Made by a program: the position numbers and the translations under genes | Assembly (NCBI GenBank): GCA_001411745.2 | Contig: LIQB01000002.1 | Location: 311,892-375,891, forward strand | Reading direction: 5' to 3' | From: Psychrobacter glacincola | GTDB taxonomy: Bacteria > Pseudomonadota > Gammaproteobacteria > Pseudomonadales > Moraxellaceae | Length of the DNA: 64,000 bases | Part shown: piece after piece, positions 1,837-56,016 of the stretch | Position numbering within the stretch: position 1 is the first letter of the stretch | How the letters are laid out: the number at the start of each line of letters is the position of its first letter | The notes under the pieces: model-generated | The model's database searches: none | What the model was told of the DNA's origin: nothing | What the model saw: only the letters and a program-made list of their open reading frames with translations

Positions 1837-2862
1837 TTAAAGCAAAATACCTTGCTCATTGGCAATTTGTGCAATCAGCGCGTAAGCAATGCTACCTTTT
1901 GAGGGTATTTTTGGCAAATTTGACAGATCAAAAAAATCGGCGTGCGACAGCTCATCTTCTTGGATAACAATTTCGCCAGCTGCATAAGAAGCACGAAAGC
2001 CTAGCATTAAATTAGACGGAAATGGCCATGGCTGACTGCTGACGTAACGAATATCTGATAGGCTGATATTCACCTCTTCTGCCACTTCGCGTACCACCGC
2101 GTGTTCTAGGCTTTCACCCACTTCTACAAAGCCTGCAATCAAACCGTATAGTAACGGTTGTGGCGACTGTAATAAATGAGGCGCTGTTTTTTGCTGTCCA
2201 TAACGATGATGATGGGCTAGCAAAATCTGCATTTCACCAGTTTGCGGATTCGGTCGAGTGATAGCCGTGATGACACAGGGTTGTACACGTGGGTATTGGA
2301 GCAATCGGCACACTGGACAGACCATCGCACGCTCATCTCGTTTGGCATGAATGGTTGGGGCAGCACAGCGACTACAAAACTGTGTATCTGTTTGCCAGCG
2401 CAATAACTGTATCGCTTGGCTAAGCTGATCGGACAAAGCCACGGGCAACTGAGTAATCAGCTGGCGGTAAGGAACAAACGCATTGCCACTGCCCTCAGCG
2501 ATGATAGGCAATGCAATATGATGTGCAATTGCATAGTCATAAGTAATAGCGCTAGCCGCTTGCGCAGTAAAGGTGTGGAGAGTATTAATCGAACGATCGG
2601 TACTTTCTAGAGTATCGGAACTTTCTAAAATATCGGCATACTTCAGAGCGTCTACACTCGCGCTAGTATGATTGACATCAGGCGACCAGTGACGCGGTGC
2701 TAGGCTTTCGAGTAGCGTGACATGACCAACTTGATAAGCAAGCTGGGTCTCCTCGTCTGAATGTGTAGCGGATGGGGGTAATTCAAGCTGCACCGGCCAC
2801 CATCCATTAGGTCGCTGGTGGCATAAAACAGTATCATCACTAAATACAAAAGCGCTGGTCAT
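1837..2862 (-). CDS. nudC: NAD(H) pyrophosphatase / NAD-cap hydrolase NudC
   Basis: Nudix hydrolase that splits NADH to NMNH and AMP and, in family members, removes NAD caps from RNA. The chosen start (M13 of the longest frame) has GGAA about 9 bases upstream and gives 341 residues; a frame opening at 2898 has no clear ribosome site. The middle holds a four-cysteine zinc ribbon (CSRCAAP and CPVC). It is followed by the Nudix box, GFVEVGESLEHAVVREVAEE, and then SQPWPFP, the signature that separates NudC from other Nudix proteins. The N-terminal third is long and variable. It stands alone, with a palindromic repeat upstream. Confidence 0.95.
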   Translation of the reverse strand: MTSAFVFSDDTVLCHQRPNGWWPVQLELPPSATHSDEETQLAYQVGHVTLLESLAPRHWSPDVNHTSASVDALKYADILESSDTLESTDRSINTLHTFTAQAASAITYDYAIAHHIALPIIAEGSGNAFVPYRQLITQLPVALSDQLSQAIQLLRWQTDTQFCSRCAAPTIHAKRDERAMVCPVCRLLQYPRVQPCVITAITRPNPQTGEMQILLAHHHRYGQQKTAPHLLQSPQPLLYGLIAGFVEVGESLEHAVVREVAEEVNISLSDIRYVSSQPWPFPSNLMLGFRASYAAGEIVIQEDELSHADFFDLSNLPKIPSKGSIAYALIAQIANEQGILL

Positions 2863-3112: not shown

Positions 3113-4795
3113 TTAGGCTGCGAGTAAATGACTCAAGCTCTGCTGTCCCACATCTAATGCTTGTTTGCTGACCGGACGATTGTGCTCAAAACCATCTAGA
3201 TGATGATCGACGGCCATAATGACATCAGCGATACAGGCAAGTGTACTGTCTTCAATGCGTTGCCCACCTTCGATACGTTGCTGAAGATAATTGGCCAATT
3301 GACTGAGCATGCTGGCAGGTGTTGGTAGCTGTAAGAAGCGTACAGCCCCTGCCACTTGGCGCATCATCTCAGGTATGTTCTGAATATTGAGCATATCGCG
3401 CTCTGGCTCAGCCAAATAATCGTTAATGGCTTGTTCTGCACTGGCAATAGCGGAACGACTTTCTTGTATTAAAGTATCATTAGCCGTATTGAGCTGATGT
3501 AAAGAGATATGCGGGTTATTCAGTGGCAAATAGATGGCCCCTGGTGTGTGCATTTCTGCCATTGCAATGGTGGCGTTTTCAGCATGCATTAATGCCAACA
3601 GCAAGTGATCGAAATCATCAGGCGAGGGCGTTTGCCAATGACTAACAGCTTCTGCTGCTACGCTGAGACTATTGGCTGCATTTGATAAACCAAGCAAGCG
3701 TAACGCTGAGCTCAATTCTGTTAGCTCTTCGATAATCTGTGCGGTTTGCATATCAACAGGGTTCAATGAATCACCACGTGCGTAGCTATCCACATTTTCT
3801 TTGATGGTATTAATTTGGGTCTGAATGATGGTGTTCAGCGTATCGGTCAGGGCGCGATTAGGACCGAATAAGAAACGTTTCATTTGCTCAAGTTGTGCGC
3901 TTTCCAAGTGGTTGCTGGCGTATTGCTCACGCAGTCGTTGCGCCGCATCACTGTCACGCTGGCAAGCAAAACTGACCAAATCCGCAAAACGTTTGTCCAT
4001 CACAGGCAAGTAGCTTTGGAATTGCTGCTCTAAATAAATCAGTGTGTGTTTTTGACTCAGATTTAGCGGTAATATCGTGGCAATGTCAGTGATAGCTGCG
4101 GTGGCCGCTTGCCAAAATAGACTGCTGGTGTTTGATGCTATCAAAGCACACGCTGCACTCATGGCATCAAGTTTTTGCTGATCGTCTGGGCTAACGTTGC
4201 TATCTTGATTGAGAAGAGCGACCCCAAGACCACTACGATAAGCATAAGTTAGTAGTTCAGTGTCTAGGTTAAGCTCGTCAAGTGGTTGGAAATTTTGTTC
4301 AGGGTTGGCAATGATGACACTACTGCTACCAAAAGCTGCAAAATAGTCTGCTGTGATAGGGGTTTCTTGCCCGTGAGCGTTGAGTTTATTGATAACAGGC
4401 AGTAACAAGGTTGGCTCTACCGACTCTGTCAAAAGCACAAACTCGATATAGCGATCCAGTGTCATAATGGCTTCTGATAAGTCCATAATCAAGCTGGTAT
4501 CGTTATTATCACCATTATCATAGAGGCGCTGTAAACCATTGACAATAGCGGTATTCAAAGCCTCTGCACCAACCAAAGATATCAGCTCAAAGATGCAAGA
4601 CAGCTGCTTTAGCACAGTGATAGAATCTAATAATAAAGGGGCTTGACTATTATCATCATTAAATTCACTCAGATGAATCTCAGTATCTTTTAAGGTTACG
4701 ATGATCTCATCATGCAACAAATGTAGCGATGGTAGATTGAAATCAGTAACACTAAGCGTTGGGGCCGTTAACTTCATTTGCGCAGACTGGTTCAT
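3113..4795 (-). CDS. fimL: FimL-like protein (degenerate ChpA N-terminal homologue)
   Basis: In pseudomonads and Acinetobacter, FimL resembles the N-terminal part of the chemosensory kinase ChpA. It lacks phosphotransfer histidines and acts as a scaffold linking the Pil-Chp response regulator PilG to type IV pilus and cAMP control. Here a helical protein of 560 residues, FimL's usual length, carries ChpA-like segments such as LPSLHLLHDEIIVTLKDTE near the N-terminus. No kinase, CheW or receiver domain follows. The start used (M22 of the longest frame) has GGAAAAACACC before the ATG. Regulation is not evident. The name rests on length and remembered similarity rather than on a decisive motif. 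Confidence 0.65.
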   Translation of the reverse strand: MNQSAQMKLTAPTLSVTDFNLPSLHLLHDEIIVTLKDTEIHLSEFNDDNSQAPLLLDSITVLKQLSCIFELISLVGAEALNTAIVNGLQRLYDNGDNNDTSLIMDLSEAIMTLDRYIEFVLLTESVEPTLLLPVINKLNAHGQETPITADYFAAFGSSSVIIANPEQNFQPLDELNLDTELLTYAYRSGLGVALLNQDSNVSPDDQQKLDAMSAACALIASNTSSLFWQAATAAITDIATILPLNLSQKHTLIYLEQQFQSYLPVMDKRFADLVSFACQRDSDAAQRLREQYASNHLESAQLEQMKRFLFGPNRALTDTLNTIIQTQINTIKENVDSYARGDSLNPVDMQTAQIIEELTELSSALRLLGLSNAANSLSVAAEAVSHWQTPSPDDFDHLLLALMHAENATIAMAEMHTPGAIYLPLNNPHISLHQLNTANDTLIQESRSAIASAEQAINDYLAEPERDMLNIQNIPEMMRQVAGAVRFLQLPTPASMLSQLANYLQQRIEGGQRIEDSTLACIADVIMAVDHHLDGFEHNRPVSKQALDVGQQSLSHLLAA

Positions 4796-27838: not shown

Positions 27839-27998
27839 CTTTGCTGAGTCATCGTCTGATTTTTTCTACCGTTTTTAAATATAAAGGTATTCAGACTTTA
27901 ACGGCGATAGAGAGGCCGTAACAATCGTGTGATTACCAAAGCGTATTAATATCAGTATTTATTTTCTATTATCTGATATGCTATCATCTTTAAGTCAT

Positions 27999-28199
27999 TA
28001 TCGTGGGTTTAACAGTTTTGTTATCGCCAGCCATTATCGTTATAAATGGTGGCGTACAAACCTTGCAACTTCCAGCACGATATAAAATAATTCTGGTAAA
28101 GCGCATGAGCCTGTACTCCGACATCCTCATTTGTGCCTGATTTTATTTGCCTATTTGGGCGTATTTCACCATTTTTCGTCGGAGTTACAGGAGTCTAAG
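27999..28199 (+). ncRNA. Structured 5' leader, copy A (candidate cis-regulatory RNA)
   Basis: About 200 nt before an unknown gene, matched by copy B at 53092-53278. Shared stems: TATCGTG (27999-28005) with CACGATA (28076-28082), and ACTCCGAC (28115-28122) with GTCGGAGT (28178-28185), which lies next to the ribosome site AGGAG. Between the arms of the first stem is a hairpin (TTTGT..CGCCA..CCATT / AATGG..TGGCG..ACAAA). Its sequence is unrelated to that in copy B, but its position is the same. I match it to no known riboswitch class. Confidence 0.6.
28105..28140 (+). CDS. Possible leader peptide (11 codons), copy A
   Basis: ATG AGC CTG TAC TCC GAC begins an 11-codon frame, MSLYSDILICA, ending at TGA. 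Copy B has the same start, first six codons, length and stop position. The first arm of the ACTCCGAC stem lies inside it, so ribosome passage could alter the fold. The upstream ribosome site is weak (GGTAAAG), and the last codons differ between copies. Confidence 0.35.
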   Translation: MSLYSDILICA

Positions 28200-28667
28200 G
28201 TGTTCAATATCATGAGCCACATTGCTAACCAATCCAAATATACCCGTCATTACCACCCACGTCATCTTCTCGCCCAGTATGCGATCAATCAGATAGCGAC
28301 ACTTGAGCTGCGTTCGCAAGATATTGTCAAAGCCATGGGTTATCCTATTAAGCATACCATCCCTGCTTGTGAGCGCCTACGTCATGTATTATCGAATAAA
28401 TACCTTGGGCTTGATGGCAGCTATATGGATAAATATTTTACCGCTGAAGAATTTCTAGCCGCGCTATTTTCTGTGCTGGATATCCCTTATACGCCGTTTG
28501 CAGAAGACATTGCCCAGATCAAAGATGCTGCTGTGCACGCTCAGCATGATAATAAAAATTCATCCTATGGCAGTGTGAGCAATGGCTATCAGCAGATGAG
28601 TGAACAAGATTATGAAATGGTTGATAGAGTAGAAGAATATAAGCTAAAAAAATCTAAGGAATGTTGA
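28200..28667 (+). CDS. Unknown protein, short paralogue of the 53279-53920 gene
   Basis: 155 residues from a GTG start. AGGAG lies 6 bases upstream, exactly as before the ATG of the paralogue. An inner ATG at 28212 is an alternative. Residues about 13-110 resemble the paralogue closely (for example RSQDIVKAMGYPIKH, RLRHVLSNKYLGLDG, FAEDIAQIKDA). The paralogue's central stretch of roughly 65 residues is missing, and the C-termini match again (NGYQQMSEQDYEMVD). The shared part is helical and could hold a helix-turn-helix, but I recognise no family. It carries the conserved structured leader and ends at a good terminator. Confidence 0.65.
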   Translation: MFNIMSHIANQSKYTRHYHPRHLLAQYAINQIATLELRSQDIVKAMGYPIKHTIPACERLRHVLSNKYLGLDGSYMDKYFTAEEFLAALFSVLDIPYTPFAEDIAQIKDAAVHAQHDNKNSSYGSVSNGYQQMSEQDYEMVDRVEEYKLKKSKEC

Positions 28668-29657: not shown

Positions 29658-29693
29658 ATAAATAATATGTTTACACTCAATAGTATTTTATAT

Positions 29694-29730
29694 TAGGGCG
29701 TGTCCTCGTTTGAATTGAGGACACGCCCTA
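29694..29730. mobile_element. Minimal MITE remnant (two ends only)
   Basis: TA, GGGCGTGTCCTC, nine bases, GAGGACACGCCC, TA. The two terminal inverted repeats of the window's MITE-like element are joined with the interior lost, leaving a near-perfect hairpin. It lies in the promoter region of the beta-oxidation operon, about 37 bp before the start codon, so it forms part of the 5' leader or blocks it. Confidence 0.7.
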
Positions 29731-37490: not shown

Positions 37491-37528
37491 TTGACAAATG
37501 CTCATGGGATTGTTTTCGATACTTTATC

Positions 37529-37702
37529 TAGGGCGTGTCCTCATTTTAAAAATGGTGATAAAAATGAGATAAATTGCCGTCAAATAAGGAAGATAGCGCC
37601 GTTAATATCGAGATATTGATAAGCTATTTGACGATGTTTAACAAAATTTAGCCATGTTTAGCCCATTTATAGAGTAATTGATTGAATTGAGGACACGCCC
37701 TA
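37529..37702. mobile_element. Full MITE-like element, copy 2
   Basis: 174 bp including flanking TA on both sides. The ends are inverted repeats GGGCGTGTCCTCA and TTGAGGACACGCCC, and the interior has no ORF. About 160 bp are shared with the copy at 55826-55987, including GATAAAAATGAGATAAATTG and ATATCGAGATATT. TA duplication and short size point to a non-autonomous element mobilised by a transposase encoded elsewhere (inference). Confidence 0.8.
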
Positions 37703-37812
37703 ATGTTGTTTGATGTCATCGTATTGTCATGGCTCTTTAACCAAAATGTCACAACTACTGGCTACACTGCTGACCTAGGCAACACAAATAATAAATGATC
37801 AGGTTGGTTGAT

Positions 37813-53034: not shown

Positions 53035-53091
53035 ATACAATCTGCCTTGCAGTAAGACCTTATTAATTACTATTATAAAGAACTAAAAAAC

Positions 53092-53278
53092 TATCGTGGG
53101 TTTAACGGTTTGCCAAGTTTTTCAATAATCACTTAGCAAACATTGCAACTTCCAGCACGATATAAAACTACTCTGGTAAAGCGCATGAGCCTGTACTCCG
53201 ACAAGGCTACCCATGCCTGATTTGACTTGCCTATTTGGGCTTATTTTATTTATTATTGTCGGAGTTCAGGAGTCACCG
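53092..53278 (+). ncRNA. Structured 5' leader, copy B (candidate cis-regulatory RNA)
   Basis: The counterpart of 27999-28199. TATCGTG (53092-53098) pairs with CACGATA (53156-53162), and ACTCCGAC (53195-53202) with GTCGGAGT (53258-53265), just before AGGAG. The internal hairpin is TTTGC-c-AAGT / ACTT-a-GCAAA, different in sequence from copy A. The blocks TTGCAACTTCCAGCACGATA and GGTAAAGCGCATGAGCCTGT are identical in both copies. Confidence 0.6.
53185..53220 (+). CDS. Possible leader peptide (11 codons), copy B
   Basis: The frame MSLYSDKATHA ends at TGA. The start, first six codons, alanine last codon and stop position equal those of copy A. A shared length with diverged codons 7-10 may mean that the peptide's position matters more than its sequence, or that the identity is a by-product of RNA structure. 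Confidence 0.35.
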   Translation: MSLYSDKATHA

Positions 53279-53920
53279 ATGTCTCATATCAATAGCCAAA
53301 ATCTCACGCCTTCCAAATATACTCATCGTTATACGCCGCGGCATCCTTTGGCAAAAGAGGCGGTTAGCCAAATAGAGAAATGTGAACGACGTTCGCAAGA
53401 TATTGTCCAAGCCATGGGTTATCCGCCAAAACACATCATATCCGCCTGTGATCGTCTGCGTCATGTATTGTCTAGCGACATACTAGGACTTAATGCGACA
53501 GATATTGATAGTTACTTTACTGCTCATGAATTCTTAAAAACACTATTATCCGTGCTCGATATAAAGTACGACACCTTTGCAGAGGATATTGCGCAAATCC
53601 AATATGACTTGGCGCATTATCCTTATCCGCTACCGCAATATCACTTGCGAGCGGTCATCGACTTTATATGGAGTGAGGGCGCTAACTTGATGTCGCGCGG
53701 CGTGGCTAGCAGTAAGGCTGTTGCGTATTTACCGCAAAATATTGCCAAAATGAATGCGGCAAAGCGTGAGTTGGTGATTCAACAATGTCTGGCTGCGCAT
53801 TATGCAGAATATAACGGTCACTTGCCGTATAATGGCGTGATTAACGGTTATCAACTTATCATTGAACAGCGTCATGAGATGGTTGATAGCATCGAGTATG
53901 ATCTGCCGCAGTGTGAGTAG
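53279..53920 (+). CDS. Unknown protein, long paralogue of the 28200-28667 gene
   Basis: 213 residues from ATG 53279 (AGGAG 6 bases upstream). An apparent hydrophobic N-terminal extension from 53213 is rejected, because its frame is not kept in copy A. The first 110 residues match the paralogue (RSQDIVQAMGYPPKH, RLRHVLSSDILGLNA, FAEDIAQIQ). A middle part unique to this copy follows (FIWSEGANLMSRG, KRELVIQQCLAAHYAE), then NGVINGYQLIIEQRHEMVD. It is helical, soluble and without a known motif. A role linked to the conserved leader is plausible but unknown. Confidence 0.65.
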   Translation: MSHINSQNLTPSKYTHRYTPRHPLAKEAVSQIEKCERRSQDIVQAMGYPPKHIISACDRLRHVLSSDILGLNATDIDSYFTAHEFLKTLLSVLDIKYDTFAEDIAQIQYDLAHYPYPLPQYHLRAVIDFIWSEGANLMSRGVASSKAVAYLPQNIAKMNAAKRELVIQQCLAAHYAEYNGHLPYNGVINGYQLIIEQRHEMVDSIEYDLPQCE

Positions 53921-54846: not shown

Positions 54847-55581
54847 ATGCAACAAACACAGAATTCTGTGGATCAAAGACAAGATGCTGTAGAACACAGA
54901 CCCGTATTTATGCCGAGAACCAACAGTGACAATCTGGTAAAAACAGACATGGTTAGGTTTGAGCGGCATGTGGGGTTTGCCAGTCGCCAAAAGAAAAAAT
55001 CCATCAATGATATGCATCAAGTTATTCGCAAAAAGTATGGCTTTAGTCATGTCCTTGAGCTATCGAGCAAGTCTGGCAATAAATTGAGTTTTCCGCTGAG
55101 TCCATTGAGCTTGAAGCTAACAAATGAACAAGATGGGCAGCAGTACAGTGTCGAAAATGCCTTTCAAAGCAGTATGGTTTTTGAAGATGGTGGCCCCTAT
55201 ACTGACTTGTTAAGTGCGCCGCCAAGACAAGTCAGAAAGGACGAGCGCTTAATGACCTCGGGTGAACTGATTGGCTATAATTATTTTGGCATGGAGTGGA
55301 GCGTAGAGCCATTAACCACATTTTATGATTGGCTCTATGTGAATGCCCTAAAGCAAAACCCGCATTTGCATGAAGAAGTTATGCAATATCAAGCCTTTAC
55401 GGATCGTGAGTTTAATCCTAAAAAGTCTATCCATTGTGCGGCTTATGCACTGGCGATGTTTGTGGCGCTCAATAAACGCGAGTTGCTCGATAACATTGAA
55501 GACCCCGCAGTATTTTTTAATCTATATCATGAATTCAAAATAAGTAATACTGAGCAGCTTTTGGAAGCGGGTTGGGTTTGA
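54847..55581 (+). CDS. DarT1-associated NADAR-family protein (DUF6977-like), orphan
   Basis: 244 residues. Segments typical of the NADAR antitoxins that remove ADP-ribose from DNA: FERHVGFASRQKKKSINDMH, HVLELSSKSG, YSVENAFQSSMVFEDGGPYT, LTTFYDWLYVNALKQNP and AFTDREFNPKKSIHCAAYAL. Such proteins usually sit beside the DNA ADP-ribosyltransferase DarT1. No DarT-like gene is found on either side here, so this is an orphan: a decayed toxin pair, an anti-toxin defence, or a general DNA-repair glycohydrolase. The family call is from memory of conserved segments. Confidence 0.7.
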   Translation: MQQTQNSVDQRQDAVEHRPVFMPRTNSDNLVKTDMVRFERHVGFASRQKKKSINDMHQVIRKKYGFSHVLELSSKSGNKLSFPLSPLSLKLTNEQDGQQYSVENAFQSSMVFEDGGPYTDLLSAPPRQVRKDERLMTSGELIGYNYFGMEWSVEPLTTFYDWLYVNALKQNPHLHEEVMQYQAFTDREFNPKKSIHCAAYALAMFVALNKRELLDNIEDPAVFFNLYHEFKISNTEQLLEAGWV

Positions 55582-55685: not shown

Positions 55686-55825
55686 ATGCCTAAAAACTTT
55701 TGATATCTAAAAACTTTTCATGCCTAAAAAATAAGCACCTTAGTCTGGTTGATTTTAGCGTTATATATTTCAACAGAACGCTTATTACTCTTAATTATGT
55801 AGATGTGATATAAACTTACGAATAC

Positions 55826-55987
55826 TAGGGCATGTCCTCATTTTAAAAGTGACGATAAAAATGAGATAAATTGCAGTCAAACAAGGATAATATCGAGATA
55901 TTAGTCAGCTATTTGACACCGTTTGGCAAGATTTAGCCATTTTTAAACCATTTATATAACTATCGATTGAATTGAGGACACGCCCTA
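55826..55987. mobile_element. Full MITE-like element, copy 3
   Basis: 162 bp with TA at both sides. The ends are GGGCATGTCCTCA and TTGAGGACACGCCC; the interior is closely similar to copy 2 (37529-37702) but has small deletions. It lies just outside the mobile-island boundary, in the chromosomal flank of the tRNA-Gly site. Confidence 0.8.
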
Positions 55988-56016
55988 AGTATGACTATAA
56001 TCCTAGAAAATTAGAC

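Follow-up and report, generated by a model that had tools for sequence, protein, structure and literature searches.

Why should two paralogous genes of Psychrobacter glacincola, standing far apart on one contig, be preceded by such similar leaders? A sequence-only reading of the window, i.e., the whole 64,000-nucleotide stretch of DNA that was analysed, had proposed that leaders A (27999-28199) and B (53092-53278) are copies of one functional, structured RNA. Both were found at these positions, and a conserved leader common to two paralogous genes is borne out by the comparison: two blocks, of 67 and 53 nt, are common to A and B at 94% and 81% identity, the complementary words TATCGTG/CACGATA and ACTCCGAC/GTCGGAGT are present in both, and over 108 aa the proteins encoded downstream have 63% identity. 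Convincing leader copies in this genome number two. Their features are given below, with the helices called P1 to P4, the CCAG/CUGG pairing PK1 and the Shine-Dalgarno sequence SD; A2 is an alignment of 44 leaders, which omits L099, a decayed copy, and L124, an orphan leader in which no P3 was found.

27982..27987, +: predicted -10 box of the leader A promoter, TATCAT with a TG extension, from sequence and group statistics
28000..28005, +: leader A, P1 5' strand AUCGUG, partner 28076-28081; nearly invariant across 44 leaders
28072..28075, +: leader A, PK1 5' strand CCAG, complementary to CUGG at 28093-28096; invariant in 44 of 44 A2 rows
28076..28081, +: leader A, P1 3' strand CACGAU
28093..28096, +: leader A, PK1 3' strand CUGG, then UAAA
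28101..28109, +: leader A, P4 5' strand GCGCAUGAG, complementary to CUCA at 28126-28129 and UGUGC at 28132-28136
28110..28122, +: leader A, P3 5' strand (anti-SD) CCUGUACUCCGAC
28126..28136, +: leader A, P4 3' strand (CUCA..UGUGC)
28178..28191, +: leader A, P3 3' strand GUCGGAGUUACAGG, ending inside the SD
28189..28193, +: leader A, SD AGGAG; in the predicted fold, CCU 28110-28112 covers its AGG
28200..28667, +: gene A, GTG start, 155 aa, a shortened copy of the B family
53071..53079, +: predicted -10 region of the leader B promoter (TATTATAAA), from sequence and group statistics
53093..53098, +: leader B, P1 5' strand AUCGUG
53108..53141, +: leader B, optional hairpin P2, GTTTGC/GCAAAC, p=0.03 for B itself
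53152..53161, +: leader B, CCAG (PK1 5' strand), then CACGAU (P1 3' strand)
53173..53176, +: leader B, PK1 3' strand CUGG
53183..53192, +: leader B, P4 5' strand GCAUGAGCCU, its CCU common to P3
53190..53204, +: leader B, P3 5' strand CCUGUACUCCGACAA
53204..53216, +: leader B, P4 3' strand AGGCU-ACC-CAUGC
53256..53270, +: leader B, P3 3' strand UUGUCGGAGUUCAGG, ending inside the SD
53268..53272, +: leader B, SD AGGAG
53279..53920, +: gene B, 213 aa, a two-domain protein with a weakly XRE/Cro-like N-terminal part

BLAST found the leader in 84 of 105 Psychrobacter genomes at E<=0.001, and a covariance model, R1, searched over 348 genomes of the family, found it at E<=0.01 in 86 of the 105 from the genus and in 0 of the 243 others. 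Most copies precede a gene of a two-domain protein family (class-1/2), which was itself detected, among 299 family genomes at E<=1e-3, in 84 genomes of the genus and, as one distant relative, in another genus. Leader and class-1/2 gene occur together in 83 of the 105 Psychrobacter genomes, the leader alone in three (G015, G072 and G103) and the protein gene alone in one (G102); neither was found in 18, the protein result being read for all genomes but G062. Over 341 genomes of the order, a second model, R2, gave ten weak matches outside the genus (E 0.02-0.91), seven inspected with their surroundings and three (L245, L246 and L247) as alignments only. Those in G855, G118 and G130 were rejected as homologues, being located in or across open frames, and those in G897, G913, G729 and G777 because no family gene lies downstream and the P1 pairing or CUGGUAAA is missing (G729 has a good P1 and CUUCCAGCGCGAUGAAAAAUA, without CUGGUAAA); all ten are, in our judgement, probably chance matches. 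A pattern search of 274 genomes of the class returned the genome itself only, viral contigs held no match (17 pattern stretches in one search, none a relative), leader B matched none of 72,556 plasmid records at E<=0.01, and phages gave no match.

The copies fall into subtypes. Subtype 1, to which A, B and most others belong, has the inner hairpin P2; subtype 2 (e.g., L084, L126 and L127) and subtype 3 (15 loci, L171-L185) are without P2 and retain the core, AUCGUG GGUUUA ... ACUU CCAG CRCGAU nnAAAA ... CUGG UAAA RCGCA. Subtype 2 is found upstream of a diverged paralogue of the same protein family, and the compact subtype 3 precedes a leucine-rich-repeat (LRR) gene in 13 of the 15 fetched loci, with no LRR gene at L171, where the contig ends, or at L174, which is genome G015. 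At L172 the LRR gene comes directly after the SD, and at most other subtype-3 loci a frame of 70-77 aa lies in between. G072 and G015 both have a subtype-3 leader, followed by an LRR gene in G072 and by none in G015; neither has a class-1/2 protein at E<=1e-3. The 5' core is retained even in leaders whose proteins share only about 30% identity and, as judged from this comparison of sequences, A and B are members of one structured RNA family.

Departures from the common arrangement were also seen. L175 has a second, weaker leader match (4413-4503, 43.3 bits) just 3' of the LRR gene at the same locus, and L186 (3001-3083) has a degraded leader 5' of a gene for a UPF0227-type hydrolase, a family that also precedes leader B in the window. 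The orphan leader of G103 (L124, around 2467-2608, minus strand) keeps the core, has no P3 that we could find and no family protein, and is followed on its 3' side by a hairpin with 14-bp arms; the gene after it is, we presume from its looks, MgtC-like.

To the sequence-only reading these words belonged to no known riboswitch class, and the comparison with Rfam agrees: across the window and nine loci, no family matched a leader at the gathering threshold. At E<=10, leader B had no match, leader A two that lay far below threshold and a subtype-3 leader five. The sole match at gathering level, ALIL (RF01497; L185, 4582-4702), was rejected as the identity of the leader, its site being well away from it; this pseudoknot lies beside the LRR gene and is, we assume, perhaps part of an IS3-type element. 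No description of the leader RNA was recognised among the titles and abstract beginnings listed in literature searches.

The longest helix of the leader bears on the ribosome site. The second stem had been read as ending just before that site, and a drawing of it as a short pseudoknot stopping before the SD was replaced once folding showed its continuation: in A and B, CCUGUACUCCGAC pairs with GUCGGAGU(U)ACAGG. In leader B the arms form an inverted repeat of 15 nt, CCTGTACTCCGACAA (53190-53204) with TTGTCGGAGTTCAGG (53256-53270), 93% complementary, and take in the AGG of the SD AGGAG; leader A does likewise. The anti-SD strand is CCUNNACUCCGAC in most leaders. The earlier boundary was materially wrong: P3 enters the SD in all 26 non-redundant arm pairs, with both SD G's paired in the best duplex in 25 and one G in L121; this reach is not independent evidence, however, because the CC and GG are conserved letters anyway, the GG due to the SD.

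Pairing itself was assessed by swapping partners among leaders, with 57 distinct arm pairs reduced to 26 by removal of near-duplicates and leaders without a placeable SD skipped. A leader's own P3 arms pair better than the mean of swapped ones in 23 of the 26 (mean -19.7 vs -16.0 kcal/mol; 0 of 10,000 permutations), the duplex energies ranging from -8.9 to -31.0 kcal/mol. On A2, 93.0% of the cells of a 12-pair P3 helix are paired vs 30-43% when the helix is slid, 16 cells are double-changed (4.0 in shuffles, 0/500; 4-13 in slid versions), and the covariation score is 0.162 vs 0.027-0.117 when slid; the counts for P3 and for the whole structure are lowered by partial misalignment, in the loop, of five subtype-2-like rows of A2. 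The pair adjoining the SD is G-C in 19 leaders, G-U in 11, A-U in four and U-A in three, and is unpaired in seven. Since relatedness inflates permutation counts, a count on the protein tree is safer: among 61 leaders, seven two-sided changes keep a P3 pair, six one-sided changes keep it and 12 break it. That tree was built with FastTree from the first 115 residues of 61 proteins and read by one parsimonious reconstruction; from 115 distinct products, those below 105 aa and two of other families were taken out, leaving 92 parsed and 61 kept (L133 fell below the length limit, and L096 and L121 are not among the rows listed).

A second helix, P4, would compete for the same region. It joins GCGCAUGAG with CUCA..UGUGC in A and GCAUGAGCCU with AGGCU..CAUGC in B, and can be drawn, with several different sets of letters, in 29 of 29 non-redundant leaders (kept from 56 distinct; L124 was unreadable). 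A duplex search always returns something, so the swap comparison alone counts: own partners beat the swap mean in 21 of the 29, by a small margin (-10.8 vs -9.7 kcal/mol; 0 of 10,000 permutations), and P4, too, covaries, less strongly than P3. Of its two strands, the 3' one falls within the loop closed by P3 and the 5' one beyond it; on grounds of topology, full-length P3 and P4 should therefore exclude each other. P4 also takes up the SD-masking CCU in B-like leaders and in subtypes 2 and 3. Inspection by eye of subtypes 2 and 3 also suggests a hairpin nested in the P3 loop and overlapping the P4 3' strand (e.g., CUGUGCUU/AAGCACAG in L126).

The expectation of a functional structured RNA was well founded, given the double-changed cells of P3 and the permutation results of both helices. 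Comparison among the leaders shows an RNA family with two helices, P3 and P4, that covary, the former reaching into the SD. Covariation had been named as the sign to look for in three stems, the first and second among them; the second shows it (the 16 double-changed cells vs 4.0), and the inner pairs of the first are near-invariant.

That first stem belongs to the 5' core, where P1 (AUCGUG/CACGAU) encloses P2, and CCAG inside P1 is complementary to CUGG outside. PK1 is invariant in all 44 leaders of A2, and each of the six inner P1 pairs deviates in two leaders at most; because these pairs hardly vary, they yield no covariation. The outermost P1 pair is U-A in 24 leaders, C-G in eight and U-G in one, unpaired in nine and gapped in two. 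Taken together, P1 and PK1 have 97.5% of their cells paired vs 19-49% when slid, with 4 further pair types vs 5.0 in shuffles, i.e., below the shuffles, and a covariation score of 0.048, one slid version scoring higher (0.081). Among the rare changes, subtype 3 has CGCGAU, keeping a U-G pair, and L057 and L058, outside A2, have UUGG, keeping a G-U pair. The core probably folds, we infer, into an H-type pseudoknot whose third loop is rich in A; as PK1 and the inner P1 pairs hardly vary, this fold rests on complementarity and invariance, and is plausible, not proven. An earlier form of the whole structure, with P1, PK1, P4 and a short second stem, was 87.8% paired vs 86.2% in shuffles (0/500) and 28-45% when slid, with 24 double-changed cells vs 9.7 in shuffles (0/500) and a covariation score of 0.080, 0.085 in one slid version.

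The hairpin inside the first stem had been singled out for arms that change and stay complementary. For A and B this holds, P2 being GTTTGC/GCAAAC in B and of other letters, still paired, in A; as a general feature of the family it does not, the hairpin being optional. It is missing from five of 45 representatives and from the 15 subtype-3 leaders, and it folds better than shuffles at p<=0.05 in only 13 of the 40 leaders that bear it. Just upstream of P1, 35 of 45 non-redundant leaders have a -10-like hexamer (five or six of six matches), often TGCTATNAT, starting 10-22 nt before the helix, vs 9 of 45 in a background window; therefore, transcripts probably begin just before P1.

How might such parts work together? 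We consider it fairly probable, with appreciable doubt, that the leader is a cis-acting RNA switch of translation initiation of the riboswitch type, in which the core senses, P4 links and P3 masks the SD. The near-invariant 5' core of P1 and PK1 would be the sensing part; P4, whose 5' strand directly follows the core, would be the link; and P3, with its anti-SD strand pairing up to and into the SD, would be the output. Formation of P4 would leave room for no more than the short ACUCCGAC/GUCGGAGU pairing, and the SD would be free (ON); without P4, P3 would reach its full length and mask the SD (OFF). Most likely, we infer, a small ligand or ion bound by the core would stabilise P4 and turn translation on. 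As in a riboswitch, the aptamer-like 5' core is conserved independently of gene identity, standing before both class-1/2 and LRR genes, and there are alternative conserved helices, P3 and P4, of which one masks the SD and which by their topology would exclude each other. The natural deletion in G102 fits this favoured switch, as a single case: the leader is lost, the gene kept, and the leftover P3 arm has drifted (TTGTCGAAGTTCAGG). At that locus (L134, upstream of 3139, minus strand) all that is left, immediately 3' of a UPF0227-like gene, is the 3' arm of P3, in which one base has drifted. On the other hand, Vienna calculations in which the short pairing was withdrawn did not free the SD, its probability of being unpaired going from 0.31 to 0.24 at 10 C and from 0.32 to 0.26 at 20 C and rising in 16 of 42 leaders at 10 C and in 14 of 42 at 20 C; within the model, this counts against a simple version of the ON state.

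The signal could instead be a protein. An RNA-binding protein acting in trans may recognise the core and repress or activate translation; it may be the class-1/2 protein, using its HTH-like domain, which would make the control autogenous. We regard this as unlikely, while several observations speak for it: of the 105 genus genomes, 83 have leader and class-1/2 gene together and in 18 neither was found, the N-terminal domain has weak Foldseek matches to XRE/Cro-type proteins, and an invariant RNA core would suit a protein site as well. XRE domains usually bind DNA, however, none of the Foldseek matches reaches E<=0.001, and the leader does not always travel with the supposed regulator gene: G015 and G072 have intact-looking leaders without a class-1/2 protein at E<=1e-3 (a paralogue diverged past detection is possible), and G103 has its orphan leader. 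Two observations tilt our choice from autogenous control towards a ligand: unrelated LRR genes follow the same RNA, and G015 and G072 retain it without a detectable class-1/2 protein.

Other readings dispense with a bound ligand in different ways. The leader may be a static element, tuning translation or stability constitutively with no input signal, or a small RNA may act on it in trans; a structure adjoining the SD would be enough to tune translation, and the accessibility calculation showed no freed SD, but two helices that should be exclusive both covary, for which a static element has no need, and we hold this improbable. A temperature or cold sensor, in which the SD-masking helix or the pseudoknot changes with temperature, would suit a helix that masks the SD in Psychrobacter, which is cold-adapted. 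Yet the P3 duplexes, at a mean of -19.7 and a weakest value of -8.9 kcal/mol, are in most leaders stable for simple melting, which leans against it, and a thermometer needs no invariant 5' core; a sensor of this kind is, in our view, very improbable. Least of all do we expect control by CsrA or attenuation by a leader peptide, both of which had been raised on the sequence-only reading from GGA words near the ribosome site and a small upstream ORF. A GGA does lie near the SD and leader A has a 21-aa frame, but CsrA is not supported because the stem GGA is lost in subtypes 2 and 3 and in L125 and L123, nor is the upstream ORF, because its region is missing from at least nine of the 44 A2 rows (L067:1298, L097, L101, L104, L107, L110, L113, L116 and L118); by eye, the SD and start codon come directly after P3, without the U run of a terminator.

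The favoured switch has parallels among known systems. The SAM-II and preQ1-II riboswitches use an H-type pseudoknot in translation control, and the leader resembles them in having near its 5' end a compact putative H-type pseudoknot, one loop of it rich in A, and in its predicted action at the SD; it differs in leaving the masking of the SD to a long, separate helix, P3, competing with a hairpin, P4, in its other invariant letters, in the lack of an Rfam match and in a pseudoknot without covariation support. The E. coli thiM (TPP) and Vibrio add (adenine) riboswitches control translation by masking the SD and, like the leader, have alternative helices of which one pairs an anti-SD strand with the SD, whereas the putative aptamer of the leader is a different one. 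Autogenous leaders of ribosomal proteins may also contain pseudoknots, as in the alpha operon (S4) and S15; these share with the leader the 5' position, the pseudoknot (here putative) near the ribosome site and the tie, mostly, to one gene family, but the Psychrobacter leader is not found before ribosomal-protein genes and occurs also before unrelated LRR genes. In the repZ leader pseudoknot of ColIb-P9/IncB, a loop pairs with the strand just upstream of the SD; here, too, a loop sequence pairs with the strand just 5' of the SD, but the Psychrobacter leader is chromosomal and does not precede a replication gene.

No known function of the downstream proteins points to a ligand, which speaks against the switch. 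The gene A product has lost most of its C-terminal domain (155 vs about 213 aa) and leader A is intact. For the gene B product (213 aa), AlphaFold2 gave a model with a mean pLDDT of 90; searches returned no Pfam family at E<=0.001, no NCBIfam or PADLOC match at E<=1, no PDB sequence match at E<=1 and, with the model, no Foldseek match at E<=0.001. Many XRE/Cro-type HTH entries stand among the weak Foldseek matches, so that the N-terminal part may be called weakly XRE/Cro-like. A Pfam scan of 13 relatives gave five stray single-member matches (best E 0.0019) and PHROGs two weak ones (E 0.0045 and 0.12). The 70-77 aa frame after subtype-3 leaders has a non/syn value of 2.38 (12 copies), where class-1/2 genes (the first 40) have 0.63 and LRR genes (11) 0.71, and is not counted as a regulated protein because it has no amino-acid constraint; in L174-L185 (about 3134-3355 in leader orientation) it remains open.

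Around the genes, in 43 Psychrobacter loci collected with a single peptide pattern, the recurrent neighbours are a UPF0227 hydrolase family (31 loci) and another uncharacterised family (20 loci). Near leader B, the window holds at 54847-55581 a gene matching PF22397 (DarT1-associated NADAR antitoxin; E 5.9e-84), and the neighbour family F9 (11 of 43 loci) looks like the same gene, a resemblance by look only. The window also contains MITE-like repeats with inverted CTAGGGCGTGTCCTC / GAGGACACGCCCTAA ends (2-55, 29693-29730, 37528-37710 and 55825-55995), of which the copies at 37.5 kb and 55.8 kb are about 170-180 nt long and match at 83-87% over the reported stretches.

Overall, if the switch is real, the leader is a candidate cis-regulatory RNA family that Rfam does not contain and that most sampled species of one genus carry; its output, the masking of the SD, would be clear and its input an orphan. 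As it lies outside all tested Rfam families and its ligand binding is by prediction only, we call it a candidate riboswitch. Tentatively, and with less confidence than we place in the switch as such, we suggest a new riboswitch class confined to Psychrobacter, in which tandem pseudoknots would sense a small ligand or ion and switch the translation of HTH-like and LRR proteins. An RNA limited to one genus can be worked out from about a hundred of its genomes. The identity of the ligand or partner would show what the downstream proteins respond to and, should the new class be real, finding the ligand would give these genes their function.
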